Source of the DNA: Polytrichum commune
Taxonomy: Eukaryota; Streptophyta; Polytrichopsida; Polytrichales; Polytrichaceae
Direction of reading: 5' to 3'
DNA length: 64,000 nucleotides
Assembly (NCBI GenBank): GCA_950295325.1
Contig: OX485808.1
Coordinates: 8,868,501-8,932,500, forward strand
The notes below the pieces were generated by a model that searched no databases, had not been told where the DNA came from, and was given only the letters and a program-made list of their open reading frames with translations. How positions within the stretch are numbered: position 1 is the stretch's first letter; every line of letters starts with the position of its first letter. Positions 1 to 44,077 of this stretch are shown in pieces. The translations under genes and the position numbers were made by a program.

Positions 1-2918
1 AAACAATCTTCATCCGAAATACGGAAGGTACCCAAAACACATACTCCACCCAAAAAACAAACTTCATCCAAAACATGGACTCCACCCAAAACACAAATTA
101 CATTCAAAACACATATCTCATCCAAAAGATAGCTCACACCCAAAACAAGAAATCCATCCTAACTTAAGGACACATCCACAAAATAAACTCCATCCTAAAC
201 ACAACTCCCATCCAAACCCCAAACTTTGTCCCCACTCAAATCCTAACTCCCACTCAAAATACAAACTCTACCCAAAAAATAAAACGGCCTCGGCCTACCG
301 GCCTCGCCACATAACTAAGTGCAAACACCACTTCACAAACAATTGGAAACCTAACTCAATACCAAATCAAATACCTAAAAACTATGCAAAATCACACCCC
401 TTACCCATACAACAAGAAAACATAATGCCCGCCCTACCCAACATTTTCTCTACAACAAAACTTGCACTCATTAAATATCAAAAACTAAATAAGAAAAAAC
501 CAAAAATACCTCACTTATATGGATACTACTTCATTACATCAAGTACATCAAGTATGTATCAAAAATCTACACATAAACCAAATTACACTAATCACCCATA
601 CAATAACAACTACCCAAAACACACTTTCCGAACAAAATACAACACCCACCCAAATTATACCTCTCATCCAAAACACAAAATACAAAGGCCTCACCCAAAA
701 TACAGATATTACCCTCATCCTAAATCCAAACCGCAACCAAAACAAAAACCACACCCAAAACTAAATCCCCCCCTCACCCCTAAACATTCAAGTAACATTA
801 CACACACCCGGAAACACGAAAAGTACCCAAAACACTTACTGCATCCAACAGACTACATTCATCCAAGACACGGACCTCATCCAAAGCACACACTTTACTC
901 AAAACACATATCCCATCCAAAACATAATCCACACCATAAACAAAGAACCTATCCTAACCTAAAGACATACCAACAAAATAAATTACATCCTAAACACAAA
1001 CCCCATCCAAAACCCATACCTTACCCCCACTCACAACCCAACCCCCACTCAAAGTACAAACAATACTCAACAAACAAAATGACCTCGGCCTACCGACCGC
1101 GCCACAAAACTAATCGAAAATACCACCTCACTAACTGGGAACCTACCCCAATAACAAATCAAATACCTAATTTATACTATGCGAACTCACACCCCTTAAC
1201 CAAACAACAAGAAAACAGAATACCCGCCCTACACCACATTTCTTCTACAACAAAACTAGCACTCATTAAATATCAAAAACCCAAAATAATTAACCTATAT
1301 AGATACTATCCCTCTACCTCAAGTACATCAAATATAAATAAACCAAATTACACTAACCACCCACATAACAACAACCACCCAAAACATACTCCCCGAACAA
1401 AATACACCACACATCCAAACTATACCTCTCACCCAAAACACAAAATACATTGGCTTCACTCACAATATAGGTACTTCCCAAGAAACGAACTTCATCCTTT
1501 ATCCAAACCGCATAGTCTACACCCAAAACAAAAACCACACCCAAAACTAAATCCCCCCCTCACAACTAAACAATCAAGTAACATTACACACAACCCGAAA
1601 TACGGAAAGTACCCAAAACATATACCAAATCCAACGAACTACTTCCATCCAAGACACGAATTTCATCCAAAGTACATAAGTTACTCAAAACGCATATCTC
1701 ATTCAAAGCATAACCCACACCATGAACAAGGAACCTATCCTAATCTAAAGATATACCCACAAAATAAATTACATCCTAAACACAAACCCCACCCAAAACC
1801 CATACTTTACCCCCACTCACAACCCAACCCCCACTTAAAATACAAACAATACCCAACAAACAAAATGGCCTCGGCCTACCGGCCTCGCCACAAAACTAAC
1901 CGCAAATACCACCTCACTAATTGGAAACCTACCTTAATGACAAATCAAATACCTATATACTACGCGAACTCACACTCCCCACCCAAACAACAAGAAAACA
2001 TAATACCCGCCCTACACCACATTTCTTCTACAACAAAACTAACACTCACTATCAACTACGTACCCAAAATATAATCCCCGAACAAAATACACTACACATC
2101 CAAATTTTACCTCTCATCCAAAACTCAAAATACACCGGCTTCTCTCACAATATAGGTACTCACCAAGAAATGGACTTCATCCTAAATCTAAACCACACCC
2201 AAAACATAGTCCACATCCAAAACAAAAAACACAACCAAAACTTAACCCTCCCCTCACACCTAAACAACCAAACAACATTCCACACACCCTACCCAACCCG
2301 ATTACCACAACTAAAACCGTATGCATGAAAAACCTAAATACAAACAAAACACGCCCTTTACCCAACCAATTAGGAAATATAACACCCGCCCTACAACACG
2401 ATACCCACCCAAAACAAAAAATACCCCGGCCCCACCCACACAAGTCCCATCCAAGATATAGTCCTCATCCAAAGCACAATCTCCATCCACGGGAAAAGCT
2501 CCATCCAAATTATAGAATCCATCTAAAACACAAACTTCATCCAAAAACCAAAATATATTCAAAACACAAATACCAACCAATGTATAGTTCTCATCCAAAA
2601 CAAGAAACCCAATCTAACTCAAAATCTCACAAGCTTCATCTTACAAACAACTTGCATCCAAACCCCACACCATACCCCCACTCAAAACACCACATACACC
2701 CTAAATACAAACCCCACCAAAAACACAACTACCCTTACTTAAAATATAATCCCTACCCAATAAACAAAACGGCCTCGGCCTATCGGCCTCGCCACACAAA
2801 CAACGACACATACCACCTCATAAACAAATGGAAACCTAACTCAATAACAAACTCAATACCTACAAATAACACAACGTCACACTTCTCACCCACACTAGTA
2901 GAAAAAATCATACCCGCT
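1..2918 (+). repeat. 5' tandem monomers of the LINE (about 0.8-0.9 kb each)
   Basis: A GC-rich box of the form GGCCTCGGCCTACCGGCC recurs at about 285-309, 1080-1104, 1867-1891 and 2770-2794, giving spacings near 795, 787 and 903 bases. Between boxes lie the same landmarks in the same order: a start-like stretch encoding MP..F.TTK..L..Y, then a YGYYF or YRYYP stretch, then an A/C-rich minisatellite of roughly 18-base units built on CATCCAAAACACAAACTC. The last monomer runs directly into the 2A-containing reading frame. By analogy with monomeric 5' UTRs of mouse L1 these may be promoter units. The GC box is the only G-rich patch in each monomer and is a candidate protein-binding site. That function is inference. 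Confidence 0.75.
425..2074 (+). pseudogene. His/Pro/Lys-rich open frame spanning two LINE monomers
   Basis: A 549-codon open frame built of HPK-type repeats (His-Pro-Lys-His-x-x) interrupted by the monomer landmarks. The ASAYRPRH segment encoded by the GC box is read in the same frame in both monomers it covers, and also in the flanking monomers when their frames are used, which hints at past coding. Against this, the DNA is so poor in T and G that stop codons are rare by composition alone, and the repeats around it lie in different frames. I recognise no domain, no signal peptide and no membrane segment. It may be an ORF1 relic or only an open 5' repeat. Confidence 0.35.
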
Positions 2919-3773
2919 ATGCCCAACCTCTTCACTACAACCAAATTCACACTTATGAGATATCTAAAAATACATATGAGGAAACCAAAAACACTTCAAT
3001 TCTACGGATACTACTTCATTAACAAATTAGATCTACTACAATGCGGGGACATCGAACTCAACCCTGGACCAATGCCAGATATCTTACGTACACACTCTGC
3101 TACACAAAAAAAAAGAGCCAACACATATTTTATTCCTAATACTATAAAACTACAACCTGAATACCAATACATAGCAAATACATTCGCCTCCATACTAAAA
3201 CACACACACCCACTACACCCCCAAGCAATCACTACATATCCACATCTACACCAATATATCCAAACACAAAGCCAATCACCACCAACCCATATGCTATACG
3301 CTCTAATCATTACCATCCACCCCTCAATAGACACATGCAATAACATACTAGCCCAGCCTCAAACCTACCACTTTAATAACATATGGACCAATACATTAAT
3401 CATTAGATTAGCTAACCTCACCAACCCCCCCGAGCGACACATACTGACACCACATCCCTATACAATATTTATACAAAACAATCAAAATATAATACATCCT
3501 CATAACTCAATACCCACAAAAATATACGAATTCATCCACAAACAAGTAACCACACCCACATCAATCACCCTTAAGAAAGAATTTCCTTTCCTCCCAAACC
3601 AATTGATAACCGAAGCACTCAGATGTTTAGAAAATATTACCGAATATTCACATCCACCCCCACTCCCAGTCGCTCCCACACCAATCACAAGAATCAATAC
3701 CAACACCGAACATGAAACAAACATAATAACATGGAATGCATCATCACTCAACACATCATTATCAAACTTATAA
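2325..3773 (+). pseudogene. LINE frame segment: last monomer, 2A and start of APE
   Basis: An open segment of 482 codons. Its first third translates the last monomer (HPK repeats and the ASAYRPRH box). The leader follows from Met 2919, then the 2A motif LLQCGDIELNPGP. About 215 residues with no recognised domain come next, rich in His, Pro, Thr and Asn. The segment ends in the first APE strand, NIITWNASSLN, just before TAA at 3771. In the same frame after the stop the next APE motif (IQETKL) follows, so the stop is a nonsense change and not the natural end. Confidence 0.75.
3027..3071 (+). other. 2A (StopGo) peptide
   Basis: Codons read LDLLQC then GDIELNPGP, an exact match to the 2A core D-(V/I)-E-x-N-P-G-P, at which the ribosome skips the Gly-Pro bond. 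It lies about 37-50 residues after the likely start Met 2919. It would release a short basic leader and let translation of the endonuclease/RT product resume at Pro. Virus-like 2A motifs are established in trypanosome L1Tc and in several animal LINE clades, where N-terminal positions are common. I know of no description in a land-plant LINE. The upstream monomers carry diverged versions of the leader without the NPGP core. Confidence 0.9.
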
Positions 3774-4500
3774 AGCCTAATAAATAACTCTCTAAACAAC
3801 ACAGCAATCATACATATCCAAGAAACCAAACTTACTGCAAAAATAATCTATAAAATATATACAAAACCTATTCCCAGAATTCAAACTCATCTTTAACAAC
3901 ACACATGCACTCACAAGGTGCATTCAACAAAGAATACCCTATACCCCTGGAAGAGGCGGTCTACTTACACTTATTCACAATAAATATGCATTCCCTGGAA
4001 ATATCACCAAAATTCCAACGCCAGCAAACATCTCACCGTACCTACAAATAATAAAAATAAATAACCATCCACAAATACCTTGGCTAATCATACACATGTA
4101 TATGCCTACACACTTAGACGACACATGTCTCATCTCACACATTAAGAACGAAATCACCAACGAAATCACTATACATCCTAATCATACATACACATTATGC
4201 GGTGACTTTAACCGAGACATTGCACTTAGGGGTAGACAAAATAACAACACTAACACCCCCCCACAAGAAGAAGACTTCTAATGGAAAAACTTCACCACAT
4301 CTCTCAACCTTGAATATATTCCAACCAACACTAGTCTCTCCAGACAATGAGACTATAACTACACATCAACAAGCCTAATAGATGGTTTTTACATTCACTC
4401 CCCAGACAACAACAAATTCATCTCCACTACAAACACAAACATGAATATAAATTCAGACCATTATCCAGTCATACTACACATCCCGCACAACACACTTATA
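3717..4500 (+). other. APE-type endonuclease domain of the LINE
   Basis: Motifs in order: NIITWNASSLN (3720-3752), IQETKL after the first stop, GRGGLLTLIHNKYAFPG (near 3950-4000), CGDFNRDI (from 4198) and NSDHYPV (from 4450). These are the standard landmarks of the exonuclease/endonuclease/phosphatase fold of LINEs: the QETK glutamate, the GDFN pair and the SDH pair, all retained. The domain nicks target DNA for target-primed reverse transcription. It is broken by TAA 3771, a frame change near 3855, TAA 4279 and TGA 4348. Confidence 0.85.
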
Positions 4501-5181
4501 ACCAGATCTCTACCTCCTACAAACACCTCACCAACTAGAATCCTAAACCCGATACCACCAGAAAACCTAGAAAACTTCAACATAACATTATTTGAAGAAA
4601 ACATTACACAACTAAAAGCACTTATCACACTACTAGAAAACCACCAACATTTAACATTTGATCAATGGCAAGAAGCCTGTACATCACTGGATTACATTAT
4701 AAACAAAATCTCAGAAACAATTGAAAAAACCTACAAAGCAGACCCATTACCCAGCCTTACAAACAGAACATCACAACAAGGTGGTTTTTTACCACGCAAA
4801 CTAGCTAGAGAATGGAAAAGACACCTCAACACATATCACCTCATCAGGAAAGCCATATACATAGCACAACATGACCCACACTGGCAAGCGCACCCCATCC
4901 TAAACGATATCCGAAATCACCAAAATGTCAACATCCCGCACCTACCCTCTACAACAACATCTCCTACTGAATGGATTAACACCATAGCAGCCATCGCAAA
5001 AACTGCAAATAAAGAAGCCAGGAAAATCACCACAAAATACACCAAAGACTGCATTCTAAAAGCCGTATCAAAATACCGCCAAATGTATGAAAAAAACCCC
5101 CCAAAAAAAACTGTAAAGTCTTCAAAGACACTGAAACCTCACCTCTTGAATCCATCATTAATAGACAAAATAATATACTAA
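4441..5181 (+). pseudogene. LINE frame segment: end of APE and linker to RT
   Basis: An open segment of 246 codons starting at the SDH motif of the endonuclease. It is followed by a long, partly helical linker with charged Lys/Glu/Arg stretches (for example LAREWKRHL). Near 5098-5110 a run of six C and eight A marks the point where RT homology passes to another frame. The remaining codons to 5181 are out-of-frame tail. No separate domain is recognised. Confidence 0.7.
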
Positions 5182-5399
5182 CTAACCCTGAAGACATTGC
5201 ATCAGAAATTTACGCGCAACAATCTATTAGTAACCGCCCAACAGTCCCCACATGCCACCATCAAAATACACACCCACTACACTGTACATGTGGAGTCAGA
5301 CAATACCCATGGCATAACTTAGAAGGATATACAATTGACAAACGAGGAGAACCCCAAATCCCCTTACACACATACTTTGACCAAGAAACCTACGACTTC

Positions 5400-6300
5400 T
5401 GTCTTAAAAACCTAAGTAATAATAAAGTCCCAGGTCCAGACAAAATTCCCAACTCAATCCTAAAAAATATGCCTCAACGTTTCCACAAACTACTCTTTCT
5501 ATTTTTTAAATACTGCTACAAACAAAAACAAATCCCCGCATCATGGAAAACTAGTCTAACAGTTTTACTATACAAAAAAGGGAACCCATCAGAACTAACA
5601 AACCACAGGCCTATCGCACTAGCTAACACCATATATAAACTTTATACAAGTACATTAACCTCCATCCTATCCGCGTATGGCAAAAGATACTAAATACTAC
5701 ACGATAGCCAACAAGGGTTCAGAGCAGAAAGAAGTACTTCCAGACAAATCCAAATACTAATCGCAGCGCTTGAAGACGCAAGACTCACAAATCAAGATAT
5801 ATACATTCTCTACATTGACTTCAAAAACGCCTTTGGCTCCATTGACCACGCCCGACTCCTAGCTATAATGAAGGACCTGGGATACCCTAATGACTCCATA
5901 AACCTCATGGGGAACATATACTCACAATCCTCAACCATATTTACTGGAGAACATTTCGGAAAAACCTCACCAATTCCCATTCAAAGAGGTACAATACAAG
6001 GCGATACCCTTAGCCCATATCTATTTATCATATTTTTAGAACCCCTCCTCAGATGGCTACAACAAGGGAATAATGGATATACCTTTGATACATCCAAAGT
6101 TAAAATCTCATCAGCAGCATATGCAGATGACCTAGCAGCAATCGCCAACAAACTAGAGACACTACAAACACAACTAAATAAACTAGACAAATTCTGCGAA
6201 TGGGCAGGAATGGACATTGGAATACCCAAATGCGCAGTGACTGGATGCCCAAACAAATCCAAACTCAACCCCACAACCTTTAAGGCCCTAATACAGGCCA
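5400..6300 (+). other. Reverse transcriptase domain of the LINE
   Basis: RT landmarks in order: NNKVPGPDKIPNSIL (motif 0), LYKKGNPSELTNHRPIAL, QQGFRAERST, YIDFKNAFGSIDH (motif A, catalytic Asp present), GTIQGDTLSPYLF (motif B) and AYADDLA (motif C, YADD at 6120-6131). All three catalytic Asp residues are intact. Frame 3 is open from about 5110 apart from TAA at 5691. This is a LINE-type RT, not an LTR type. Clade assignment needs a tree. Confidence 0.92.
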
Positions 6301-7151
6301 CCAACATAAATTATAGAAACCAACCTATACTAGCCCTAAACCAACACGAACCATACACATATCTAGGAATAAACCTCGCACCATCACTAAAATGGAAAAC
6401 ACAAATAAATACCACTACAGCTAAAGTAATCAAACAATGCCAAACCCTCGTAACATGCCCAGCTACTATGAAACAAAAAATCAACATGGCAGATACAGTT
6501 ATACGTGCTATGATAGCATATAGCTTTTATGCAGTACCATACTCCATACCAGCCATCAAGAAACTTGATAAAAAAATCATAGCACTCCACAAAACAATAT
6601 GCGGAATACCCAAATACACATCTAACATCGCTACACAACTTCCACACAACCTATTCGGAATCGAAGCATTTTCACTACAAAATGCCTACTTAAGATGTAT
6701 TGGTGAACAACTACAAAACGCCCTTAATGATAAAGGTCGAATCGGAAAAATCTATACTGGCCTAATGCAATTTATTCTTGCCAAATATGGGGACTCTAAA
6801 GAAATTTCTCGTATTAAATACCACCACTGCGTTAGATCACCTATCACTAGAACATTATTCTTGCTCAAGCATGAAGCCGGAGTTCATCTAAAAAACACAA
6901 TTAACAACTTCCTACTACACCCATCCCCACTCGAAAATGCATGGATGCAAGAAGCACAGATGCTACAAGGTCTAAATCCCAACACCTCACTTAAATTATT
7001 ACACAAATTATTCATACATAATATAACAACACTAGATCAATTAACCATGCCTAATGGTACCACACTAATGAACCAAGAAGAATTCAAAATCTACCACTCC
7101 ACCCCTTCCAAACTCATCCAAAGTGCACTAAATATCGCTAACCAACTATTC

Positions 7152-7202
7152 TGCCACCTTCCTTGTAATCACGAATGCCCCCTATCATGCCCACGACACC
7201 AT
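7152..7202 (+). other. Cys/His cluster in the LINE linker
   Basis: The residues CHLPCNHECPLSCPRHH give four Cys spaced by three or four residues, with several His. This could be a zinc-binding knuckle between the RT thumb and RNase H. It is separate from the C-terminal CCHH finger at 9423. It does not match the classic CCHC retroviral knuckle spacing, and a metal-binding role is inference only. Confidence 0.45.
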
Positions 7203-7994
7203 CCACCCAGGTCCCTCAAAAACAAATATATAATAAGACACCACAACATCCTACCGCACATACCGACTCCACCCATACACCCCCCAAACCCTCCCATCCC
7301 CCCTCTACCCCCTCCCCCCAACAATATAGTTAAAGACCCCCGACAATATTCCATACACAAAATACTCGATTACAAACAAAAACAGTCTAACGACCATAAC
7401 GGAATAAAAAGAACTGTCACGTCATACCTATGCCAATGGACTACAACAAATAACCACACATACAACAAATGGCGAACTCCAAGAGAATTATACCCCTACT
7501 GCGATGCCAACACATATAATCACAACACCGACCTACTTACCCACTACTACACGGAAAGACAACACAAACATCTCTCAAACATTATTAATGCCTACTTCTC
7601 CACAAAACAACAAAGAGACACGAGATACGTCACACCTACCACAATAATCCCGCTAGCCCATATCTCTATTAACGAATGTAACCCAGAAAATGACATCGAA
7701 ACAAACTCTGACACTATCCAAATACAATTTGATGTCGTCCACATATACGAAGACAATGGTCGGCACCTCATCACCATCCCGAAAACCAGACTAATGTGGT
7801 TATGGAAACAATACCAATTGGCAAAAAACACCACACATGGTCTAGAACCACCCACCCAATCCTTCGAAACTGAAATTGTTTGGTTATATCAAAGATACAA
7901 ACACCGTATCCCGAAAAATGACCCACTCAAACGTGCCCAATACACAATACCAACCCCAATATTAGATCTCCTAATAACAACATTCAATATCAAC

Positions 7995-8340
7995 CATTCA
8001 TATTTTTCATCCCCAGTGACATGTCCCACACAATTTACCCAATTCTACTCACCATTTTTGCGTGACATAATATTTGGATCCCTAGGGAAAGCGTTTGACC
8101 ACAAATGGCAAGGAATCAGATACGCTCACCCCCACAACGCAACAGACTTACAACAAGCCATTCACTGGGCTCGCATGGCGGCCCAAAATGACCCATACAC
8201 AATCACTATACTTATATCCCCGGATACCGAATGGTACAAAAACTCTAACCCGCACACAGGTCCTTTCCTGGATACACATGTCATTGCCCACTTTGCCGCT
8301 GATACGATCACATATGAAGAACCCACAATACCCCCCGAAC
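7995..8340 (+). other. Possible degenerate methyltransferase-like segment
   Basis: The stretch runs FSSP..., FYSPFLRD, FGSLGKAFDHKWQG, IRYAHPH, an Ala-rich helix (AIHWARMAAQ), then TITILISPDTEW. The order (aromatic-Ser start, W-G turn, a P-containing turn where adenine methyltransferases have N/D-P-P-Y/W, a helix, then a hydrophobic strand ending in P and W) recalls Dam-like methyltransferase segments known from DIRS-type elements. The P-P pair is not present (YAHPH), so any such domain would be inactive or diverged. This is a weak fold-level impression only. Confidence 0.2.
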
Positions 8341-8510
8341 TTAATATTACAAGAAAATAACCATCTACCCTACAAATATTTTGTATCCACCACCAAAACA
8401 GTAACATAGGCACCTATGAACAAATAAAATTACTAAAGGACATAGCCGATAATCTCCAAATACTACAAAGCCACACCCAAATTGCACCACCCACCCCTTC
8501 AAACATCACC

Positions 8511-9359
8511 GTGAACTCTAGTAAAAAATGGTCTAAATCAAATTACCCAAATATACTCCCATACAATACAATCCCCACCCCACAACTCCCAAACTACCAG
8601 ACAAATCTACCTCTCAAATTCCACCCCCAATTCAGCTACTACACTGACGGCTCCTTTATAAAACCCAAAGAAATAGCCCCTGGAGAATGGAGAAGAGAAA
8701 GAACTGGATATGGTATCTGCAACCCCAAAGGGCTAAACATCGCCAATAGATTACATGGACACCAAAACATATTATGAGCAGAAATGATTGCTATACACGA
8801 AACACTAAGAATTATCAACACACAATATCCCAACGAGCCCGCATTCATATTCACATACAGTCTAAACGTATTATACCTATTTAACACACAAATTAAACAT
8901 CCCACACTTCATAATAGTCACCCAGACCAAACCACACTAGCCTCCATGGTAAAAATTCTTCAAAAAAGGACACAACCAATCACACTATACAAAGTTAGAG
9001 CACACGTCAACATTGACGGCAATGAAAAAGCAGATAAACTAGCAAAAGAAGGATTAGAATTAGAACACAGAATTGCCACTCACTCATACGAACACGCCCA
9101 CGCCACACCTTACTACTACCAAAAAGACGCATGGGCCTCGATGGAAGACGTTCCGGACAAAGGCCCAGTCAGATTCCTAGAAAAACAAATTAAAAAATAT
9201 GATAGGGAAACGAACCTAGCAATCATGGCCACACAAACCCCCAACACTTGTAAATGGACAGAAAATGTTGATATAGACAAAGAGATGTCGAACGAATTTT
9301 GGGCAAATCCCGTTATCACCGACAAACAAAAATCATGCCTCATCAAATTCCGCACATGA
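8511..9359 (+). pseudogene. LINE frame segment: RNase H, interrupted
   Basis: Two open pieces in one frame, 8511-8777 and 8784-9359, separated by TGA 8775. RNase H landmarks: YYTDGSF (Asp codon at 8646), AEMIAIHE just after the stop (Glu), IFTYSLNVL (the third acidic position; codon 8856 is TAC, Tyr, where Asp is expected) and KVRAHVNIDGNEKADKLA (His and Asp of the last motif). RNase H removes the RNA strand of the hybrid; here the Asp-to-Tyr change alone would inactivate it. TGA 9357 follows and the same frame continues into the C-terminal domain. Confidence 0.85.
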
Positions 9360-9365
9360 ACCTAC

Positions 9366-10136
9366 ATGGATAATGCGAGGAAACAAATGTTCTTTGGTCA
9401 CCAAAGATATCCCACTATTACGTGCCCCATATGCAACTCAAATGAACCAGATACATGGCTGCATGTACTACTTACATGTAAACACCAACATATACACTCA
9501 TTTAGAGTTAAAAGACATAACAGAGCAGTTGAGGAAATTAGGAAGCTCCTAATCTCATCAGTAAAATCCCGATGTTTTATTCTCATGAATGCTGGCACCT
9601 TCAATAACAACCCCCAAGAAAACACAGTCCCCAACTGGCTACTCCCCTGCACATGTAGTACACAAAGATGTCACTGCAACGCAAGATTTAGACCGGACAT
9701 CCTTTGTGTTAAGGGATTACCATATCAAAATGTCCCCCCCAGCGACATTGACCCTAACCTCACCATACAATTTATTGAATTCACATACTTCAATGATAGA
9801 TTCTCCCCAAAAGCAATTGTAGCAAAAAATAACAAATACAGCCCACTAATTGCTAGCATTGTTTCCAGAGGATGGAAAATCGAACCTCTTATTGTCATCA
9901 CTGCTGGTGCCAGAGCTACTGTCCACATCCCATCTATGAAATCACTAGAGACCAATTTCAAAATACCCATGGCCACCATCAAAAATACTTTCAAAAATAT
10001 TAACACCATTGCAATACAATATGCCATGTCTATCCTCCTCCATAAAAGGAGAATTGAAAACCACCAACCACTCCCCCAAATCCAGACCCCCCATAACTCA
10101 GAACTTAAAAAGTTAAGGGTAAGGGGCACGGGGTAG
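9366..10136 (+). pseudogene. LINE C-terminal zinc finger and restriction-like endonuclease region
   Basis: 256 codons after TGA 9357. Landmarks by residue from Met 9366: CPIC (20-23), WLHVLLTC (31-38), RVKRHN (47-52), CTCSTQRCHC (95-104), RPD (109-111, Asp codon 9696), IEFTYF (137-142, Glu codon 9777), K-x-x-K-Y (154-158), and a GW...PLIVITAGARA strand. A CCHC/CCHH finger, then RHN, then PD...(D/E)xT...KxxKY is the layout of the restriction-like endonuclease at the C-terminus of R2, CRE and Dualen-type LINEs. The key acidic and Lys positions are present. Plant L1 elements do not have this. Natural stop at 10134-10136. Confidence 0.7.
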
Positions 10137-10317
10137 TATATTAGGCGTAGTTTACATTATTGGTTTCTTGTGTCTAAAGTGTCTACTCTCGAAAGGGGGG
10201 AGTAGATCTTCTCCTTCATACCTCTGTCCTGTGGGCTTGGGATTGAAGGTAGATCGAACAGACACTTAATTCACGTCGGTCTCCTTCGGAGACCGAAGTT
10301 GTTATTATTATTATTAG
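10137..10317 (+). other. LINE 3' UTR with terminal hairpin and TTA tail
   Basis: After the stop the composition becomes balanced and G returns. A perfect 9-bp hairpin with a TTC loop occupies 10276-10296 (CGGTCTCC / GGAGACCG plus a T-A pair). It is followed by GAAG-like bases and a TTA repeat at about 10302-10315. In LINEs such as eel UnaL2, a 3' stem-loop followed by short tandem repeats is what the reverse transcriptase recognises and adds to. A related hairpin with a TTC tail sits at 61373-61410. Confidence 0.75.
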
Positions 10318-13229
10318 TTGTCTTTTGTCTCAACTCATATACACACTTGGTTAAACAAAGGCACCTTGTTGTGTAATAATGGCATTGCCAAGTGGATTTG
10401 CAATGCCACTAACTTTATATAACGAAGGCCACACACAAATTAGTCTAATTTCCCCTCATAAGCTAAATGCAAAGTTCATGGCACATGCCCCACTATGAGA
10501 TATCATGGTCTTTGTACTAATGAGGTTTAAAGTTGGGAGTCATCCTAACTCACAGTTTTAAGGACATGCGTCAAATTCCCATGGTCCTATGGACATGCCT
10601 CAATGGAGGGTGATTAAACCAACTATTTGGGCAATTTAGCCTAGTTTTGGAGTCCAGTGCATTAATGGTATCCCAAAATTGACTTAGACATGATAGAAAA
10701 ATAAGACCACATTACTTGAAAATACTACAAATTGTTGACCCACTTTTTCTCCTGCCTATCAATTTTTTTTCCTAGCTGCACATTTTTCCACTACCAACAA
10801 CTCCCCAAAACAAATTGGCACTTGCCCAAATTTGCCCACGTTTTCCTACCGAAAGCAACCCCTATCTTCTCCCAAACCAGCCATGCACTAAAACCAACAA
10901 TCCCACCTAATGAGAGTTTGAGCCTTTGTAACTTTGAGCAGGCATATCGGTAAGCCACCCCTAACTACGTCCTTACACTCGGCCAAAACAATTGGGTTTC
11001 TGTTAGAATTGCCCCCACTTATTGCCCAAATCCACTAGGCTTTGTGCCGTATACATTCGGATGGTCTTAAGTATGCTCCGCTTACATGTCTAGGAGGTGT
11101 GCATATGGATGGTTATGATTTGAGGATGGAATTAACACCCTCTACCTTACCAAAGTAGGAAATATATCAACCCCCACAAATTTGTTTTGTTTGTATCAAC
11201 AACTAAGGTCGACTGATTATTTTGTGTTAAGCCCTTCAGAGTTCAAGCCTTTCTTAATACATAACAACACCCAGTGAAATCCCATTGTTCACATTCAAGG
11301 CTTCTTTTTGCACCCATCACAAACCAAACGAAAGGCATATAAAGTCTAAAATTAAATCTTGCATGCCAAAGGGGAAAAAAATGAGAAATAAGCCCCGTCG
11401 CATGAATAGGCAAAACAAAAATCAGCTCGTCAAAAGAAAGGTCCCCTCAACCAATACTCTTCAACCATAGATCGATAACTTGTGAAGTCATTTATCGTTT
11501 GGTATAAGGTTGAGTATTTGGAAGCAACCGGTGGGGGGATGCCTACAAAGGTTGGTTGAAAATGTCAATGACTTTTGCAGATGCACCCTTCGATCAAATC
11601 AGAGGCAGAGTACCATTAACTGCCACCAATGAACGACATAATGATGAGAGTTAACATGTATGTAGAAGTATATTTACAGGAACCTTTAAGGAACAATTGT
11701 GAATCACATCCAAGTCATAGTCAAATTTGGTGTGGGTTGGGTATTTAGAAACAACTAGCAGGGGCAAAACCTAGTTGGCTAAAAGGTCATTAATTGTTGC
11801 ATCATGCACCCTACAAATACATTTTAAGTGGACTACCATTAGGTGACTTAACTGTTTTTAGTCAGCTAAAATGTCATCTTCTTTATAATTATGCTTCAAA
11901 CATGACATGGAATAAATTGTTGTCAAAGAATGAACCGTGAACATTGAGAGGTGCATAGAGGTCGTGATTCATGTGGTGTCTTTAATAAAATTAAAGATTA
12001 TTCAATTGTGGTAGCAAAATGTGATGATGTGTGCAAGAGAACCATGATGTGATGTAATGTGATGAGGATGTGATTTTGTATAATTTTGTGACTTGTTGAT
12101 TTGTTAATCCTCATTAATGAAAGTAAGGAGGGTGGATTGAGACCATAGAGCTTTATGATCCTCTCAAATGTTCACTCTTGAGAGAGAACAAGTGCACAAT
12201 TTTGTTCAACCTTGATTATTTGTTTTTATCAAACTAGACTATCAAATCAACCTTGAGATAGCATCATTAAGCAATTCAAGGTTGAGCAAATCAGGGAGGG
12301 ATGCTTACCAACTCTCCATAACATCTTTATTTGGTTGTCAAGGTTCACAAAGACATGAACTTCCCAAGAGGTACATATCTCCTTTAAGTTATACAAGTTT
12401 TGAATATATTGACTTATGTATATTTTTATATATGGATGATTGAATTGTGAATAATATGCAAAGAATAATTGAACTATGTATTATCTTATTCAACAATTTA
12501 AATATATAAATAAATGAATTTGTTTATTTATTTAAGTGTTCTTTCACTTTGTATTATTTTATATAAGTTTTTGGTTCTAATTTTCTTATACTTTAATCAA
12601 TCAAGGGTTGGTTTGTACATATTGCATTGCAAACTCAAGTGACAAATCACTTTCAAATAGTGAACCTTTGCTTTTCAATGACGATTTATTGGACTCCCAA
12701 GATGTTCAATATCTGCACCCACAAGAGATCGTGCATGGACATATGAAAGAAAGTTCATAACATCTTGAAAATTGGTAGGAAATGGCTTATGCATATGAGA
12801 CAATGTGCTAGGCCTACACATGATTATATGAAATGCTATGCATGTGAGGAATTTCATGTTAATTCGCTATGGGGTTTGGAGTAGATTGCAAAAATATGAA
12901 GAAATCATCCATATGTGATCACTAGAAAAACAATGATTACAAGTTTTGCAGTGGCTAGATGGGAGGCCCTTCATTTTGCTCCGATTGGTTTAGTTTTTAT
13001 TACTCATTGTGCTCAAAATGCTTTAGAAAAAAGAACATGCAAGATTTATCACAAGCATAAAGCTCTTATATTTTATATTTTATAATAAAATTTGATCTAT
13101 TATTAGTTTTGAAAGAGAATGTTGACTTTACGGCTTTGAACACTTATGATGTGTTTGTGAACGATGAGTATGGATCCTACACCACAAATACAATTGCATT
13201 AAAATCTTTATGGGTTGTATTAGAGGATT
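10318..13229. other. Intergenic, no gene recognised
   Basis: AT-rich sequence with only short chance frames (for example 10732-10953 and 11285-11470) that match nothing I recognise. A TGATG-rich patch lies near 12010-12080. No terminal repeats or RNA genes were seen. The right part may include diverged N-terminal remains of the hAT-like element that follows. Confidence 0.6.
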
Positions 13230-15285: not shown

Positions 15286-15490
15286 GAGGGCCGCCCACCC
15301 CTCCAAAACCCTCGACGGACACTGCTATCGGTCCTTTTCCACCTCCGTTGTCTCGGCACAGCTCAGGTCCCTGAGCTCTCCGAGGGAGGTTTGCTACTCC
15401 GCATCCTTGGAAATTAAGTTACTGAACTGAAATTCCATAGTATCCCTGGATCAGTTGTTTGTTTTGCAGCATATTTTCTTGTACAAGAAA

Positions 15491-20019
<4,529 letters not shown>

Positions 20020-22060: not shown

Positions 22061-23739
22061 GAACCCTTGGAGAGGAAATGATATTTAGGTCCCTCACATA
22101 AAACACTGATTAACACATGAACATCCTCTAAGTGTCTTCAAGAGAATTGCTTAGTTCATTACATATACTTTCACAAAGTGTACAATATGACAGACTCATT
22201 TTTGGTGATTGTTGGACATGTGCTGGAGGCTATAGGTGCCCAGAAATCTTTCAAAGCTCAATTTGTGAGAATTCAGTCATTGTTGAACATGCGTAAATCG
22301 AGGCAATCTTATGAAGGCACTCCAATCTAGGTTACATCCATGAAGCCCATCTACAAGTGCCTTCCCAAAAATGTTTGGTTGACAAGTTCATGCATTAAAA
22401 ATCGCAAATTTGCAGCTGTTGAATCGAACCTTAGTTGGTATCGATCTCCGACAATCTTGGGAAGGTATTATGAAGACATTACCGAAGTTCTAGAAAGGTA
22501 ACAGAGTATAATAGCCCAAGAGGGTAGGCAGATTTCTTTTTCCCTGGGAAGTGGAACTAGTTGTACGCATCTAGCTAGCTAAATCTCTTGCTGTCAAAAC
22601 CGATATCAAGGCTATACCAAGAGGAATTGAGGTCCGTTGCCCAACAATTTACCCCAATTAGCGAATCCGAAGTGGGTCTTCCGATCGAGCAGAAGAGGCG
22701 CAACCAATCGTCTTTGGTGAGTTCCGTGGTGGGAGTGGAAACGGAGGCTTTGTGAGGCGAGGGGCAGGGTTGCTGGCCACATTTGGTAGAGTAGATGTGA
22801 CGTTAGAAATCATTGATTAATTTCTTGCATGATGATGTGGTCTTTGAAGGCACACTCCAAGAGGCCAGAGCCACAAAGGGCCGAACCTGAGCGGATTTAA
22901 GGTAGTTTCCACAAGCGACAGTAGTGTGTGGCAGTGATCAAAGAGCGTCCTGTGCTGGGGCTTGGGCACCGGAAGGGAAATGGGATCTGAAGCAGGGTAG
23001 TTGCGAACCATAGCATGAGGAAGAGCACGATTGTAGTGTGATTGCGTGCTCTCCGTAAGTCGCAACCTCCCTTTCTGTGCATACGAACCAAACAAACACT
23101 TCAACTCAGGCCGACTCGCAGGTGGAGCGACTGGCAAGAGGTGAAGTTTTGGAGCCCAAGTTTGTCTATAAATGAATTTTTGAAGGTGTCATGGCTAATG
23201 TTTTTGTGAGCGCGAGGTGAGTTGAGGTAACTGAGTAGGTGTTGTCCCTGCCACTCCGATTGAACTCATCGGTTGGTACCGCCTGTCTCGCTGTAGGAAA
23301 TACGACAGTGGGTGCTTTCCTAAAGAGTGGTTTTTTGGTTGTTTAATATGTGTGACGGACGTCGGCGATGCTGAGAGCATCATTTGCTCGAGCTTGCTAG
23401 CAGGAGGCATGTCTCTCGCTTTAGGGGCAGGTGGCGTCACTTCGTAAATCTGTGATAAAAGAGTGGGGAGGTCGGCTCTCATCGTTGGCTGTAGGCCGCC
23501 CTTTGTGTTCGTCTCGAGGTATGGTGGTGTTTGCTGGAGCATCTAGCACCTGTGATCGTTGTGTTAGACATGAGTATTGGTCGGCAATGTTGATCAGTAA
23601 TCCCCACAACGAGGGAATGTGTTGCAGCCATGTGGCAAAGATCGCAAAGTGGGTTGTTGTACCGTGAATTGGGTAGGACAAATTTCTTATGGCGAGGAAA
23701 TGGGAGGCTTGTCCATGTGGGTTGGTACTCCGGATGAGA
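22061..23739. other. Intergenic, no gene recognised
   Basis: More GC-rich than its surroundings from about 22600 to 23740, with several overlapping open frames on the minus strand (for example 22817-23137 and 23195-23542). These show no recognisable domain and no conserved gene structure. Possibly a decayed transposon or gene fragment. Confidence 0.5.
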
Positions 23740-24227
23740 GTTCACTTCACAAGTGACAAGACTTGCAACATTAGAAATCTAGGATGCCGAAACAATGCCA
23801 GTTCACTTCACAAGTGACAAGACTTGCAACATTAGAAATCTAGGCTGCCCAAACAATGCGAGTTCACTTCACGAGTGACAAGACTTGCAACATTAGAAAT
23901 CTAGGATGCCCAAACAATGCCAGTTCACTTCACAAGTGCCAAGACTTGCAACATTAGAAATCTAAGATGCCCAAGCAATGCGAGTTCACTTCACAAGTGA
24001 CAAGACTTGCAACATTAGAAATCTAGGCTGCCCAAACAATGCGAGTTCACTTCACGAGTGACAAGACTTGCAACATTATAAATCTGCGATGCTGAAACAA
24101 TGCCAGTTCACTTCACGAGTGACAAGACTTGCAACATTAGAAATATGTGATGCCGAAACAATGCCAATTCACTTCACAAGTGACAAGACTTGCAACATTA
24201 GAAATCTAGGATGCCCAAACAATGCCA
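23740..24227 (+). repeat. Minisatellite, eight 61-bp units
   Basis: Exactly 488 bases, 8 x 61. Each unit starts (G/A)TTCACTTCAC(A/G)AGTG and ends ACAATGC(C/G)A. Units differ by a few substitutions only and no indels, so the array is young or homogenised. Each unit contains the imperfect palindrome CACTTCACAAGTG. Units ending CGA (2, 4 and 5) and CCA (the rest) suggest higher-order duplication. Confidence 0.95.
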
Positions 24228-24427
24228 ATTGTGGACGACAACGTTGGGAAGGTCATCCCAGAGTGTGTAGCTTCATGAGGAGGGGCGTCGATTTTGGGTT
24301 CGGTGCGAGCCTCTGGTGTCGCCGTGGGCAATGGTGGTTGCCAATCACCTGCAACATTAATTGTTGAGGAGCTCATCCATGAGGTTGGCAAGGTTGCCAA
24401 GGGTCACAAATCCTGCTTTTGAACTTA

Positions 24428-28569: not shown

Positions 28570-31500
28570 ATGGTTATGGAGGAGGCCAGCCTAGGGTTAG
28601 GGTTACAGACCCCTTCGAGTCGACACTGGGATGGTTCTGGAAGGCGAAAGATTATGGTTGTTGTGACTTCTATTTTTCTGTTGATGGTAAAGTTGCCTGT
28701 CTCGGAAGGATTGAAAAGGAAGGTGGAGGAGAAAGGCCCAGGGTTTGGTGCCAAGGATAGCGATGTTACCATTTTTGAGCAACCGCACCGCACAGGGTTC
28801 CACTTCCAGCCTCAGAAGAATTGGATGAATGGTATGGAATCAAATACTGGGTATAACAAGATGGTGAAATGTATGTACTTGTGTGTGTGTGTGTGTGTTC
28901 GTTCGTTTTGGTGCAGATGTAACTGTGTATGACATGATGTGTAGGGAGATTTTGTAGCTTCAGAAGTTTGATGTGGGGTTAGTGTGAATGGAGTCTGCTT
29001 TGTACATGTGACTTGCACTCTTCAAGAACCGTGTGTAGGGAATTACCTTACTCTGTAAGAACAATACTAAGCGGGTGCATGTGGATCACCATTTTGCTTG
29101 ACTCAATTTTCAGGAGATGATTGCATGAGCTCAAATTTACCACGATCAAATGTTTTCCTCCAGTATCCATTTTGTTTCTTGTTTTAACACAGGGCTTGGT
29201 GGGTGTTATGATTTTGTACCATGGTCATCATCATGGCGGCACTTCCCAAATCTAATGCTCAGATCCAAATGGTGAGTGTATAACTCTTCTGCCCGATGAT
29301 CACCAGAGTTTTAGCTATCCATGCTACAAGAGTTGATGATTTCTGCAGCAAATCGATGCAAAAAATTTTGATACGTCGTTTAAGGTGTCCTGCAAGTTTG
29401 CAATGTTTCGAGAATCGATGCATAACTCAGACAAATGAATGCTGCCAGCACGTGTTTTGGATACAGTAGTAACTATATTCTTATATTGTATACCTGACTC
29501 ATATCATATATGATTTATACATTGAAGAAATGCTCTCGAAGTTGCGTAAAGAAATTCCACTGTTTGAAGTTCAAACAAGTTGGTTTCTGCATTCAAAGAC
29601 ACCAGAATGACTTATGGGCAAGATTTCTGAGAGAAGAAAACACAATATCCGAATAACCTACATTTACATGTGGGAATTGTTTTGAACTTGGGTTCATCTC
29701 CATGGCATACAGTCCTTTGGGCTGGTTGTGTTTCTCCAAGGGAGATTAAACAAGGATCAAGGGTCCTTTCGTGAGTGTTGGCAAAGAACCACTGGCAAAA
29801 TACCCGTGATCTTTCTAGTGAGACGGCTCTAATGTAATGTCATGCCCCTTTATTTGGGTGTTTTGTTGAAAGAAGAAACTGAATATAAATGTTGAATCTG
29901 AGGTCTCCAAGCATGTCTTCCGTTCCCTCCTAAGGCAGATCTTGATTTATTCTGGCGGCCCAACTTAGGGTTGTAGATAATTGAAAAATTCTCTGCATTA
30001 CGTGTACATTTCTAAATCGTTTTGAGTTTGGGTTTTTCTCCAGGATTGATGTATTACAAGGGTTATTACCACCTATTCTACCAATACAACCCGCAGGCGC
30101 CCATCTGGGGCAACATTGTGTGGGGGCATGCGGTGTCGACTGACTTGTTGCGGTGGCGATACTTGGAGCCGGCTATGAGAGGAGACCACTGGTATGATGA
30201 GAGGGGTGTGTGGTCGGGTTCGGCCACTTTGCTGGAAGACGGATCCCCAGTGTTATTGTACACTGGGGAGTCCCGAAACATGACCCAAGTGCAAAACATG
30301 GCCATTCCAGCAGACAAGTCCGATCCTCTGCTCCTCCACTGGGTCAAGGTAAGTCGAACTATGAATATCTTTGATACTTCATGTAGGGCTGTCTTTGAAA
30401 CGGGGATCTGTAGGGATTTGAGCCTTGGTCCTTGTACTTTTTTTGAGGGGTAGAAATGTAAGCTCTCGGCTCGAATACATGATGGGGGATTTGGAATGCT
30501 TAAATTCGCCGTTCTGAATCGGAGTTGGAAAACAAGATTCTAACCCGTAGAAACAGGACCAACCTTACTTTGAAAAGGGACCAAGCTCCCTGAGGATAGG
30601 CTCATGAGAAGGTCAAGATTCTACTTACTTTGAAGCCATGTGAAGAGATGATTTTGGGTCACTTCCAATGAGTCTTTTATTCACCGTTACATATTTCATC
30701 TTTACTTCCATTAGTGGACCCCTTTGACAACATCTCGCATTAATGTTTAAAGGAAGAAAGTTTGCAGAGGTGCGACATCACTGGAAAGATGACCACCAAT
30801 ACCTAGTCTACAAAATCAAGTAAATTCTACCTGCCAACCTTTCCTTCCTTCCTTCATCTTTTCCTCTCTCCTCCTCCTTGTAATTCTCTCTCTCTCCCCT
30901 CTCTCTCTTGCTGTCATTTACGTTGTTTTCAAGTAAATTCTAGTAATTTCCAGAATTTTTATTGTTTTTGCATTCTTGAAGCAATGGAAAACAAGAATAA
31001 TAATAGACATGGAACTACCCTTTCCTACAAGAAACACTACATTGATTACTTGAATCGTTAAACACACCCTTCTTGGTTTCAGTGGTCATGATTGAAGGAA
31101 TGCACACATGGCTTAACAACTCCTTATCCTTAGCTTCTATACCCCTCACTTCCCCTTGCCCTCATCTCATTGCTTGCTGCTACTTAAATTCTATTATTTT
31201 TTTGGAACTCCTCATACTAATGACCCCAGATGAGTTTTCTAATGGTATAATTGTTTCTCTCGTCATGAATAGGTGGAGCATAATCCGGTGCTTGTAGCGC
31301 CTCCGGGATACAATGAAAGTGAATTTAGGGACCCAACAACCGCATGGCAAGGGCCGGATGGCTTTTGGCGATTAATCGTGGGAGCCAACGCAGGAATTCA
31401 GGGGATTATCGGCACGGCACTTTTATTCAAAAGCAAGGATTTTAACAACTGGGAGTTTGCCGGCCGGCCTTTGCACTCGGTCATGGGCACGGGCATGTGG

Positions 31501-34500
31501 GAGTGCCCAGATTTCTACCCAGTTCTCATGGAAGGCATGCAAGGCCTCGAGTCCTCTGGAAAGCAACAACCTCGAGGTAGTTACAGAACCTTACAAGACA
31601 TAGAATGTCAATGACCTCATTTTAAATGTGTCATGGAGCTACAAATTTGAAGATCAAGTGATAGAAAAAGACTTTCATATATATTATGGAAATTCTAAAA
31701 ATATGTACTTAACAGCAACTTCATACAAGATGCCATGTGCCATGAGTCACTATCCAGCATGTGAGCTCTAGACAATCTACACGGGTCGGTGAGTGAAGTA
31801 TGCAAATCTATCAATCTGGTAGACTTATATGTTTTCCCAATGACGTAGGACAATTTTCCAGTGACGTTGCACAATTGCCCAGGATTCATGTGCTTGTAAT
31901 GAGTTTAAAATATGCAAGTTCATAATGCATGGAGGAGACTCATGGGCAACCTAACCATCTTCTACAACTTATTTCTCAACGATAATACTTCATCATACAT
32001 TACCATATATTAGAGTATGGTATGATAGGCATATGCTATCATACGTTATCATATGCTTATCAATATCTTTCAATACTTTATCATAAGTTCAACAGCTAGT
32101 TAATCTTCACTTATTGTACCCCGGTCCATTGTGCAGATAGTATGGGAGATTCGACCCTGGGACAACAACAGACAGTGAAGTATGTGTTGAAAATTAGCTC
32201 AGACGATAAAAAGCATGACTACTACTCAGTGGGATTTTATGACATGGATACGGATACCTACGAACCAGCGAGCCCAAGGTTGGACACGGGAATTGGGCTT
32301 CGATATGACTATGGGAAGTTTTATGCTTCGAAGTCATTTTTTGATCCAAGTACAAGCCGGCGCATTCTTCTCGGGTGGTCGAATGAGTCGGATAGCATTC
32401 AAGCAGACATCAGTAAGGGTTGGTCCTCTATCCAGGTAAAAAAAGGTCATGATGTTTCTTGTTCACCTGCTTCACTTAATGCTACACTAAAACATATGAT
32501 TTAGTGTGGCCCTCACAATCCATTATCGACCAACATTGATTGGCCTGCAATCACTGGGTGGCAACTAGAGAGGGTATCCCTCAAAAGAAGGAAGAAAACT
32601 TGTAAGATCACATTGCATAGTGAAATTCTTAGGAAATATACAGTGAAGTAAAGGCAACACCAATGCCAACGATAATCATTCTCCATCAGACAGTTTGGAT
32701 GGAAGATAAGAATTCATGTCAAAAGGGTGGTCATTTACCAGCAAACTCACGTAATTACAGCATAATTCCCAATTTGCAGAGCATGACCTCCAACTGGCAG
32801 GACTTTAATGCTCATTAGGAATTTGTTTTTGACACAAAGTGCAGGCGATTCCCAGGAAGGTGTGGTTGGATGCAGTCACTATGACAGATCTACTTCAATG
32901 GCCAATTGAGGAGGTTGAGAGCCTCCGCATGGAAAGACTCTTCAAGGAAAATATTGAACTCAAGGCTGGATCCACCATTCACCTCACAGAGATCACAAGT
33001 GCACAGGTTACTATACTTGCCCCTACTTCTAACTTCCAGCCTCAACCCAGCACGAGTTATTTACCATACCGCATGTGCCTACAAGGTGAGGCAACTCTTG
33101 CCCAAAAAAAAGAGTAAGTTATCACCTAATGTACATAAATCTTCATATTTTCTTTTCAATGTGGCCATGACACGTGACACAAAGGTTGAATTAAACAATT
33201 TTGTTGAACTTCGTAGGCACATACGGTAATTTTCTTTAATAAATTCATCAAGAGATCACAAGTGCACAAGTTGCTATACTCCTTTCGACTACCTCCGACC
33301 TTAACCCTGGGGCATGCATGAATATTTATCACATCGGAGGTGCCTCTGAGGTAACATAACATTATTAAGCAGTGTGTGTTCGTTCATGTGGGCCCTTAGA
33401 ATATAACCATCGGATGTCCCAACCTAGTGCAAATTAAGACTTGATCCAAGTCTCCTTGCACTAGGTTGGGATACCCTATGGTTATATTCTCAAGGCCCAC
33501 GTGAACGAACACACATGGCTTAATAATGTCATCAAAGAAACTAGACCAGTCAAATTAAGTTAAGCTTTTACATGACGCACATGAATCCTCAAAGCTTATA
33601 CTCAATGTGGCCATTACACAAAGTGGACACGTGACCATGAAACATGACACAAAGCTTGAATTGAAGTTCAACATTCAATCAATGATGAACTTCATATGCA
33701 AATAGGGTAATGATCTTCCAATATTATGTCAAGAGATCACAAGTGCACATGTTGCTATACCCCTACCACTACTTTCAACCTCAACCTTGCGCACACAAGT
33801 TATTCACTGTACCATATGTGTGTATGAATGAGCAACTCTCCCCATAATGAATCAATTTCTTTATCCAACATGCATGAATTGTCATGGGTTTGCTCAATAT
33901 GAGCATGACACATGACAGAAGGCTTGAATAAAACCACTGATAAGCGCCGAACTTCATAGGCACGTACAGTAGTGTCTTTCTTAACGTCGATCAACAATGT
34001 TCTACAATTGAATGGCCAAACTTTCATTCGGTTGTCACAATTGTTCAAAAAGAGGCATCTATAAGATACAGTGTCATTGGAGACAAGAAGGTGAGTTGTA
34101 AACGGACTAGACACCCACTAGGATGGAGAGAGACTTCAGGACACATCAAAAGCTTCCAAGAAATGCAAGGAAATGCAAAATCTGAAAATTCTTGAACCCA
34201 AAATCAATCTAGTGAAAAAACATGATACTCCAAAAAATAAAACAAGGACCCCATGCCTCTCTGCCTGCAGTTTCCTTTGGTTGTTGCCTCCTGCAACCTT
34301 TTTATCACCTCCATACTGCCCACCTTCTACCTGCTCATTTTATAATTGTAGAAACTCAAATGTGTACCCAATGTGTAGGATAAACCATTACTATGATTTT
34401 TGCAAGAACTTTAAAACATGGTGGGATGCATGACCCAAACAATAGCATGGTGCTCAAGAAGCTAAGGATAGAGAATCACGAGGTCTCCTTTGTTAGTCCA

Positions 34501-43742: not shown

Positions 43743-44077
43743 TTACATTCATAACACCAGTACTTTACATTACAGCTCATCAAATGTGAATAAGCATTTT
43801 TTCAGAGAGACAGCTAGCTAGAGGGTGAGTTATGGAGCATAATAAGTTAATAGGTTACAAGTACTTGGTAAAGCTTGAATCGGTTGAGAATGTAAGTTAA
43901 AGGCTCGACAGTCACCACACATGGCCCATTTCAGCTTTCCCCATGAATGCTCATGCTTCATGTCAGCTCCTCCGGTGCATCCCCATGACTCATCAAAAAT
44001 CTCTTCAATGTATTATTAAGATCGATTTGGTGGTGGGTTGGGTTGGGTTTGGTGTGGTGTGCTTGGTTGTTGTGTAT

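Follow-up and report, generated by a model that had tools for sequence, protein, structure and literature searches.

Probable decayed copy of a Dualen/RandI-type non-LTR retrotransposon with a PCIF1-like segment in the land plant Polytrichum commune

LINEs that carry both an apurinic-type endonuclease (APE) and a restriction-like endonuclease (RLE), together with RNase H, constitute the Dualen/RandI group in the available passages of PMC4640811. According to the same passages, APE-type LINEs are thought to derive from RLE-type ones by replacement, the evidence being Dualen, which keeps both. The group is listed for green algae only in the accessible part of a 2015 survey (PMC4438587). The initial annotation of the locus described here had assumed that dual-nuclease LINEs are known mainly from algal Dualen/RandI, which agrees with both sources; annotated cryptophyte elements are to be added from the available text of a 2025 paper (PMC12747079). 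The 3' repeats tabulated for eight green-algal RandI families are of the (ATT)n or (CTATTT)n type (PMC3747384, in excerpt).

The window, a 64,000-nt stretch of Polytrichum commune DNA, contains a decayed non-LTR retrotransposon at <1-10316 of the forward strand, on which all the features below lie, and the element runs past the window start. It is probably a copy of a Dualen/RandI-type element in a land-plant genome. The modules are ordered 5' to 3' as HPK-rich tandem-repeat protein, 2A, APE, reverse transcriptase (RT), PCIF1-like segment, RNase H, RLE motifs, 3' UTR and (TTA)5. The initial annotation recognized the APE, RT, RNase H and RLE motifs, all of which are retained here, and left out the 2A motif, the PCIF1-like segment and the (TTA)n tail. 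The element start that it placed at 2919 was not substantiated; the open frame extends upstream, via a probably coding tandem array, beyond the window start. The copy is dead, given seven in-frame stops (3771, 4279, 4348, 5691, 8358, 8775 and 9357), two frameshifts (near 3850 and near 5100) and a net 98-nt deletion. A single frame at 5091-10136 covers the RT to the RLE and is broken by four stops only. The element is known from this one copy; none other was found elsewhere in the window with blastn of 1-10400 (E 1e-3) or tblastn of the protein (E 0.01). Scans of viral contigs found no relatives, tblastn of the protein P0001 against phages gave no match, and the window showed neither an Rfam hit at the gathering threshold nor a tRNA in the scans for them. 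The best matches of the host invertase exons are plant enzymes.

The APE (3720-4482) is recognized by the ordered motifs NIITWN (3720), QETK (3819), GDFN (4201) and SDH (4453-4461), the last three placed before the RT as first annotated, and is broken by the stops at 3771, 4279 and 4348 and by the frameshift near 3850. Its match to PF14529, with the query joined across the frameshift with X, reaches 4.1e-05 and 23.9 bits, under the curated 27.4, and the unjoined piece gives 0.028. The RT (5400-6500, with YADD at 6120 and a stop at 5691) matches PF00078 at 2.4e-30 over 5580-6377. The best PDB matches of the RT are five R2 chains at 68.1-106.1 bits, the lowest of which (68 bits) is near the score of the L1 chain 8c8j (65 bits). 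The RT tree is unrooted and has eight rows, without a Dualen row; its single L1 is PDB 8sxt, a human L1 and not a plant one. In this tree the window RT is placed on the R2 side, apart from that L1 and three other LINE RTs (95/95).

RNase H was also annotated initially, and matches PF00075 (1.3e-10) at 8634-9056, with a stop at 8775. Its catalytic residues, assigned by eye, are D (YTDG), E and H (VRAH at 8994), all retained, and the third Asp position is Tyr (FTYS) in this copy. The L1s that carry RNase H have an archaeal-type enzyme with Arg in place of His according to the available passages of PMC4640811, which itself failed to recover the clustering of the archaeal type. The window RNase H has His at this position, and not the residue expected of a plant L1.

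The putative R2-like RLE region (9423-9960) follows RNase H and contains, in the order first described, a CPIC...H...C finger (CPIC at 9423), RVKRHN (RHN at 9513), RPD (9690), IEFT (9774) and KNNKY (9825), as well as GWKIEP. An extra Cys cluster, CTCSTQRCHC (9648-9677), was read from the sequence between the RHN helix and RPD. Among the window's 723 six-frame pieces, one contains the ordered R2-derived motif string, which none of 100,000 shuffles of the C-terminal piece reproduces; a looser form occurs in one of the 723 and in 21 of the 100,000. These figures are post hoc, since both forms were written after seeing the window. The initial annotation had proposed a profile check of the C-terminus, which came out divided. 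The C-terminal piece is the best of the 723 pieces against a three-sequence R2 profile (E 0.036, the next 0.13) and lies above all 1000 shuffles, in an alignment that spans the finger-RHN part only, but with a profile of the R2 catalytic half it is unlisted up to E 10. The comparison of the R2 RLE alignment with the window by hhalign gives a probability of 5.6 and E 0.0069, likewise over finger-RHN only. Structure prediction without an alignment gave an uninformative model of this region (pLDDT 32.7) that showed no PD-(D/E)xK fold, and the PDB search with the C-terminal piece returned nothing but a cadinene synthase (E 0.46). An R2-like RLE is suggested at motif level. The dual-endonuclease reading is favoured by the APE-RT-RNase H-RLE motif order, by an RT outside the tree's one L1 and by the RandI-type tail. 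The opposite outcome named initially, an RT inside plant L1 combined with a C-terminus that offers just the zinc finger, is not what was found, as far as a tree with one non-plant L1 can tell.

The window element has in common with R2 the finger-RHN-PD-[DE]x[TQ]-KxxY order and the RT, for which R2 is the best PDB match, but its second acidic motif has Glu where R2 has Asp, and the CTCSTQRCHC cluster is additional. R2 retrotransposons are not known to contain APE or RNase H. APE, RT, RNase H and a plant host are shared with plant L1 LINEs; on the other hand, the window RT is apart from the tree's non-plant L1, the RNase H has His and RLE motifs are present. A further comparison is provided by the L002 frame, which encodes 4299 aa without interruption and lies on contig NHEN01000039.1, deposited as part of a Verrucomicrobiaceae MAG. 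Like the window element, L002 combines APE, RT and RNase H with an RLE-like end, whereas it has a MYND finger, no PF12237 match and no RHN by eye. Its RT groups with those of the window and R2 in the eight-row tree, but on a long branch with odd composition. The two C-termini match by BLASTP at E 3e-04 in one comparison and at 0.05 between the long proteins, phmmer scores the window C-terminus at -0.6 bits against the whole of L002, and the PDB search with the L002 C-terminus gave no match. No counterpart of the PCIF1-like region was found in L002 (-3.8 bits).

The PCIF1/CAPAM-like segment is located at 7836-8420, between RT and RNase H; its profile match covers 7836-8123, a stop is found at 8358 and the extension to 8420 is presumptive. 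The Cys/His cluster CHLPCNHECPLSCPRHH (7152-7202) was read from the sequence between the RT and this segment. The match to PF12237 has a value of 7.9e-10 (1.7e-09 in another run) and 39 bits versus the curated 31.1, over profile positions 11-106 of 176. Among PCIF1 chains, 6irx and 6irv match the segment alone with E 0.016 and 0.045, and 6irx matches a long query with 0.67. Structure prediction of the region without an alignment gave an uninformative model (pLDDT 38.1). What the element shares with the PCIF1/CAPAM cap m6Am methyltransferase is this PF12237 stretch of ~95 aa, which immediately precedes the catalytic motif. The catalytic motif of PCIF1 is NPPF, whereas by alignment to PCIF1 this position reads HPHN (8127-8138) in the window copy, which is placed within a LINE.

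The 3' UTR (10137-10301) is strongly structured and ends in a terminal hairpin; the sequence 10137-10316 folds at -58.9 kcal/mol (z -3.78), with 0 of 200 shuffles as stable. It is followed by the (TTA)5 tail (10302-10316), interpreted as the element's 3' end, which fits the RandI repeat type as tabulated in the excerpt of PMC3747384.

At the other end, a tandem array (1-2960) of units of ~790 bp (~265 aa), open at the window start, contains 18-nt sub-repeats encoding HPKxxx. The units start at 14, 809 and 1595 and are followed by a last partial copy. The copy spacing drops from 783 to 685, a net loss of 98 nt against the unit before, after which the repeat protein continues in another frame (2043-3071, in the open frame 2043-3770). 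The 2A-like ribosome-skipping peptide FYGYYFINKLDLLQCGDIELNPG/P is found at 3000-3071 (core 3048-3071), and its codon pattern, D[VIM]ExNPGP, has one match in the window and 0 in 100 dinucleotide shuffles. Reportedly, 2A sequences are also carried by animal and trypanosome LINEs (Odon et al. 2013), which are APE-type by the title of that work; a 2A-like motif within the reading frame is common to these and the window element, whereas the latter differs in its RLE motifs and in its apparent host, a plant. The 2A motif is defined as D[V/I]ExNPGP in the available part of PMC4981915. Its presence in a plant element is of note because a 2026 survey, in its accessible passages, reports no evidence of 2A use by plant viruses (PMC12846837).

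The array is probably coding and corresponds to an ORF1-like part of the polyprotein. The promoter of mouse L1 is built of monomers, and the array could likewise be a non-coding monomer promoter, with the 2A at the N-terminus of an enzyme starting from the in-frame ATG at 2919. Such an arrangement, which would recall the N-terminal 2A-like sequences of sea-urchin NLRs (PMC4981915, in excerpt), is unlikely. The frame 2-2071, which runs off the window start, has 690 codons and 0 stops, while 1000 dinucleotide shuffles yield open frames of 219 aa at most. Neutral copies simulated with the same substitutions have on average 4.7, 2.1 and 4.3 stops and are stop-free in only 4, 103 and 14 of 1000. 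Moreover, 15 of the 17 gap runs in five pairwise array-unit alignments are divisible by 3, and the remaining pair (50 and 48 nt) falls within the alignment that spans the frame change. The dN/dS between repeat units (0.49-0.53) speaks for the promoter, as it is not significantly lower than under a matched neutral simulation, in which 85, 440 and 99 of 1000 runs gave the same value or less.

For the element as a whole, a Dualen/RandI-type retrotransposon is preferred because of the domain order, the RT nearer to R2 than to L1, the His of RNase H, the RLE motif series, the weak L002 match, the (TTA)5 tail, the 2A pattern, the coding repeat array, the PF12237 match above cut-off and the plant-like host invertase exons. 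Counting against it are the E value of the R2 RLE profile and its reach over finger-RHN only, the absent match to the catalytic-half profile, the low hhalign probability, the fading of the L002 match in the long-protein comparisons, the APE below the Pfam cut-off, the L1 score near the lowest R2, the uninformative structure models and the single copy. Dualen/RandI elements, compared by description only, resemble the window element in pairing an APE with an RLE (putative in the latter), in having RNase H and in an (ATT)n-type 3' repeat (available passages of PMC4640811 and PMC3747384); the window element differs in its apparent land-plant host, 2A, coding tandem-repeat protein and PCIF1-like segment. 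The last three modules may, rather doubtfully, define a separate dual-endonuclease clade, sister to Dualen/RandI. L002 lacks a PCIF1 match, and therefore LINEs of the dual-endonuclease kind seem to come in more than a single form, as a sister clade would have it, whereas the RandI-type tail and RNase H agree with plain membership. An APE-only plant L1 or I-group LINE, with a C-terminal zinc finger that resembles an RLE by chance, is quite unlikely: the RT splits from one L1 and three other LINE RTs, the RHN, RPD, [DE]xT, KxxY series in R2 order is absent from all shuffles, and RNase H has H, not R, even though RNase H is likewise found in plant L1 and in I-group LINEs (PMC4640811, in the passages available) and the profile support for the RLE is weak. 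Finally, the frameshifts near 3850 and 5100 break the frame, as two unrelated elements, nested or abutting, with APE and RLE not of one polyprotein, might do. The continuity of the frame from RT to RLE and the same APE-RT-RNase H-RLE-like order in the uninterrupted frame of L002 make this highly improbable.

In an intact copy of the Dualen/RandI-type element, a single mRNA would be translated from one long reading frame. The basic tandem-repeat protein would be freed at the 2A by ribosome skipping, an activity suggested by the motif. By homology with other LINEs, the downstream enzyme would bind its own RNA at the structured 3' UTR and at the (UUA)n tail, nick the target DNA and copy the RNA by target-primed reverse transcription, and RNase H would clear the template RNA. 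The first-strand nick would fall to one nuclease, and the second-strand nick or a specificity step to the other, with either role open to APE or RLE. Speculatively, the PCIF1-like segment, which lacks NPPF here, most likely binds RNA or the cap and does not methylate.

A more tentative proposal is that the element represents a land-plant lineage of 2A-split dual-endonuclease LINEs (tandem-repeat RNA-binding protein / APE-RT-PCIF1-like-RNase H-RLE) and that a relative of the cap methyltransferase, captured and no longer catalytic, tethers the enzyme to its own mRNA cap. In the portions available of the open-licence literature, neither a land-plant Dualen/RandI, nor a LINE with a PCIF1 domain, nor a plant LINE with a 2A was found to be reported; these absences are weak, since the coverage is open-licence only. 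If true, a dual-endonuclease LINE in land plants would mean that this form persisted outside algae and would provide more material for assigning the cut in each strand to its nuclease. In turn, a PCIF1-related segment in a LINE would tie retrotransposition to cap recognition.

A single non-LTR retrotransposon copy, delimited from stop-to-stop frames and from translations with stops written as X, occupies <1-10316 on the + strand. From 5' to 3' it carries a tandem-repeat protein, a 2A motif, an apurinic-type endonuclease (APE), a reverse transcriptase (RT), a Cys/His cluster, a PCIF1-like segment, an RNase H and a motif series of R2-like restriction-like endonuclease (RLE) type, followed by a stop codon (10134-10136), a structured 3' UTR and (TTA)5. 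The initial annotation had described a LINE with APE, R2-like RLE and RNase H at 2919-10136, and all the motifs it listed were found in the translations, in the order it gave. It named neither the 2A motif and the coding array nor the PCIF1-like segment and the 3' UTR. The copy is dead, since it contains in-frame stops (at 3771, 4279, 4348, 5691, 8358, 8775 and 9357), frameshifts near 3850 and near 5100 seen in the stop-to-stop frames, a net loss of 98 nt from the array, where the spacing between copies drops from 783 to 685, and a tyrosine at the third RNase H aspartate position, which was assigned by eye.

The repeat array (1-2960) lies upstream of the initially annotated interval, extends past the window start and is coding. 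Its units of ~265 aa contain 18-nt HPKxxx sub-repeats. The array frame has 0 stops in 690 codons, whereas no open run longer than 219 arose among 1000 dinucleotide shuffles. A single unit stays open for 265 codons, and the longest run among 1000 shuffles of it was 241. In five pairwise unit alignments, which overlap and hence are non-independent, 15 of the 17 gap runs are divisible by 3; the remaining two (50 and 48 nt) fall in the alignment that crosses the frame change. Matched neutral simulations gave means of 4.7, 2.1 and 4.3 stops and were stop-free in 4, 103 and 14 per 1000. The dN/dS values of 0.49, 0.53 and 0.49 are not decisive, with simulated values at or below them in 85, 440 and 99 per 1000. 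No Pfam family matched the array. The 2A motif, GDIELNPG/P, is located at 3045-3071 (one pattern match in the window, 0 in 100 shuffles). As the array is coding and the 2A lies downstream of it, the likeliest role of the 2A is to split an ORF1-like protein off the enzymatic portion.

Other features are found in the same window. More tandem repeats occur at 23734-24230 and 44077-44845, with periods of ~61 bp and ~149 bp and copies 77-93% identical. Two GH32 exons of an invertase-type gene lie at 30016-30450 and 32100-32501; the first has plant invertase-type structures as its best matches (the best 9 of 21 rows, top 3ugf at 1.4e-37). The pieces at 15431-16015 and 18898-19311 appear to resemble a nucleolar DEAD-box helicase gene, the second with a GUCT match slightly under the cut-off and the first without a Pfam match. 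With these two genes, the host is likely a land plant.

The APE matches PF14529 at 4.1e-05 when the query is joined across the frameshift (23.9 bits, under the curated 27.4) and at 0.028 on the unjoined piece. The RNase H matches PF00075 at 1.3e-10 and retains the histidine (VRAH, 8994) at whose position the archaeal-type enzyme has arginine, according to a section of PMC4640811. The same section cites a report of archaeal-type RNase H in plant L1, a clustering that the analysis described there did not recover. The PCIF1-like segment matches PF12237 at 7.9e-10 (1.7e-09 in another search; 39 bits, curated 31.1) over profile positions 11-106 of 176. PCIF1 chains match the segment at E 0.016 (6irx) and 0.045 (6irv); with the long query, 6irx reaches just 0.67. 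The NPPF position reads HPHN in this copy (8127-8138), directly past the end of the PF12237 match. At least four base changes lie between the two, so the loss of NPPF may characterise the family instead of reflecting simple decay.

The RT matches PF00078 at 2.4e-30. Among PDB chains, five of R2 score 106.1, 98.1, 97.6, 72.2 and 68.1 bits, and 8c8j, taken as L1 ORF2p from its near-identity to 8sxt, scores 65. An unrooted tree of eight RTs, whose rows exclude Dualen, plant L1, R1, Tad and Utopia, falls into two halves with a support of 95/95: one holds the window element, L002 (contig NHEN01000039.1, filed under a Verrucomicrobiaceae MAG) and two R2, the other an L1, L003 and two elements from L001. 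Neither half is resolved internally, L002 and one L001 row are long-branched and the composition of L002 is odd. L001 and L003, contigs with LINE frames that are filed under bacteria as MAGs of a snail endosymbiont and of an Erysipelotrichaceae member, are apparently eukaryotic contamination.

The annotated R2-like RLE is a candidate, favoured by its motif order and by a profile built from three R2 sequences taken from PDB alignments, in which 9360-10133 ranks top among 723 six-frame pieces (E 0.036; next unrelated piece 0.13). Its 9.2 bits exceed all 1000 shuffles (maximum 7.8), the alignment covering the finger and the RHN part. An ordered R2-derived motif string, written after the window was seen, matches a single piece among the 723 and no shuffle out of 100,000; a looser string, likewise post hoc, also matches one piece of the 723, and 21 shuffles out of 100,000. 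Against it, the window piece is absent from the matches of a profile of the R2 catalytic half; hhalign of the R2 RLE against the window gives a probability of 5.6, and a single-sequence structure model of the region a pLDDT of 32.7. By eye, which is not a test, RPDIL, IEFT (VDVT in R2), KNNKY (KxxxY) and GAR align with R2. An additional Cys cluster, CTCSTQRCHC (9648-9677), follows the RHN helix and precedes RPD; it has, by eye, no counterpart in the three aligned R2 sequences.

L002 (1-12900) is apparently a second dual-endonuclease LINE. One 4299-aa frame contains a MYND finger, an APE (PF03372 at 0.0048, under the cut-off), an RT, an RNase H and an RLE-like C-terminus, with no PF12237 match. 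BLASTP against the long protein of the window gives 5.5e-30 for the RT, 0.002 for the RNase H and 0.05 for the RLE stretch. For the C-termini on their own, a single comparison gives E 3e-04; by phmmer they score 3.2 bits (maximum 0.0 in 300 shuffles), and -0.6 bits against the whole L002 protein. Although filed under a marine bacterium, L002 apparently derives from a misbinned marine eukaryote, a host assigned because of its content.

The element is probably, judging from sequence, a Dualen/RandI-type copy in a land-plant genome. An APE-only plant L1 or I-group LINE, whose zinc finger resembles an RLE by chance, is unlikely: it would suit the silent catalytic-half profile, and the R2 side of the RT tree and the shuffle comparisons speak against it. 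Two observations, an R2 score as low as 68 bits and the value of 0.05 for the RLE stretch in the long L002 comparison, make the Dualen/RandI reading slightly less likely and the chance RLE slightly more so.

The group that combines APE with RLE is Dualen/RandI, for which a passage of PMC4640811 also reports RNase H. The relevant section of a 2015 survey (PMC4438587) lists the group under protists (green algae) alone, and a portion of a 2025 study (PMC12747079) annotates LINE/Dualen in cryptophytes. RandI 3' repeats are given as (ATT)n or (CTATTT)n in a passage of PMC3747384. The 3' UTR of the window element has a predicted fold of -58.9 kcal/mol (z -3.78; 0 of 200 shuffles equally stable). In the proposed mechanism, ribosome skipping would take place at the 2A, the PCIF1-like segment may bind RNA or cap, and the element enzyme would recognise its 3' UTR; APE and RLE would split the cutting work between them, and integration would proceed by target-primed reverse transcription. 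Compared by description and not by sequence, the element agrees with the described features of Dualen/RandI save for its apparent host.
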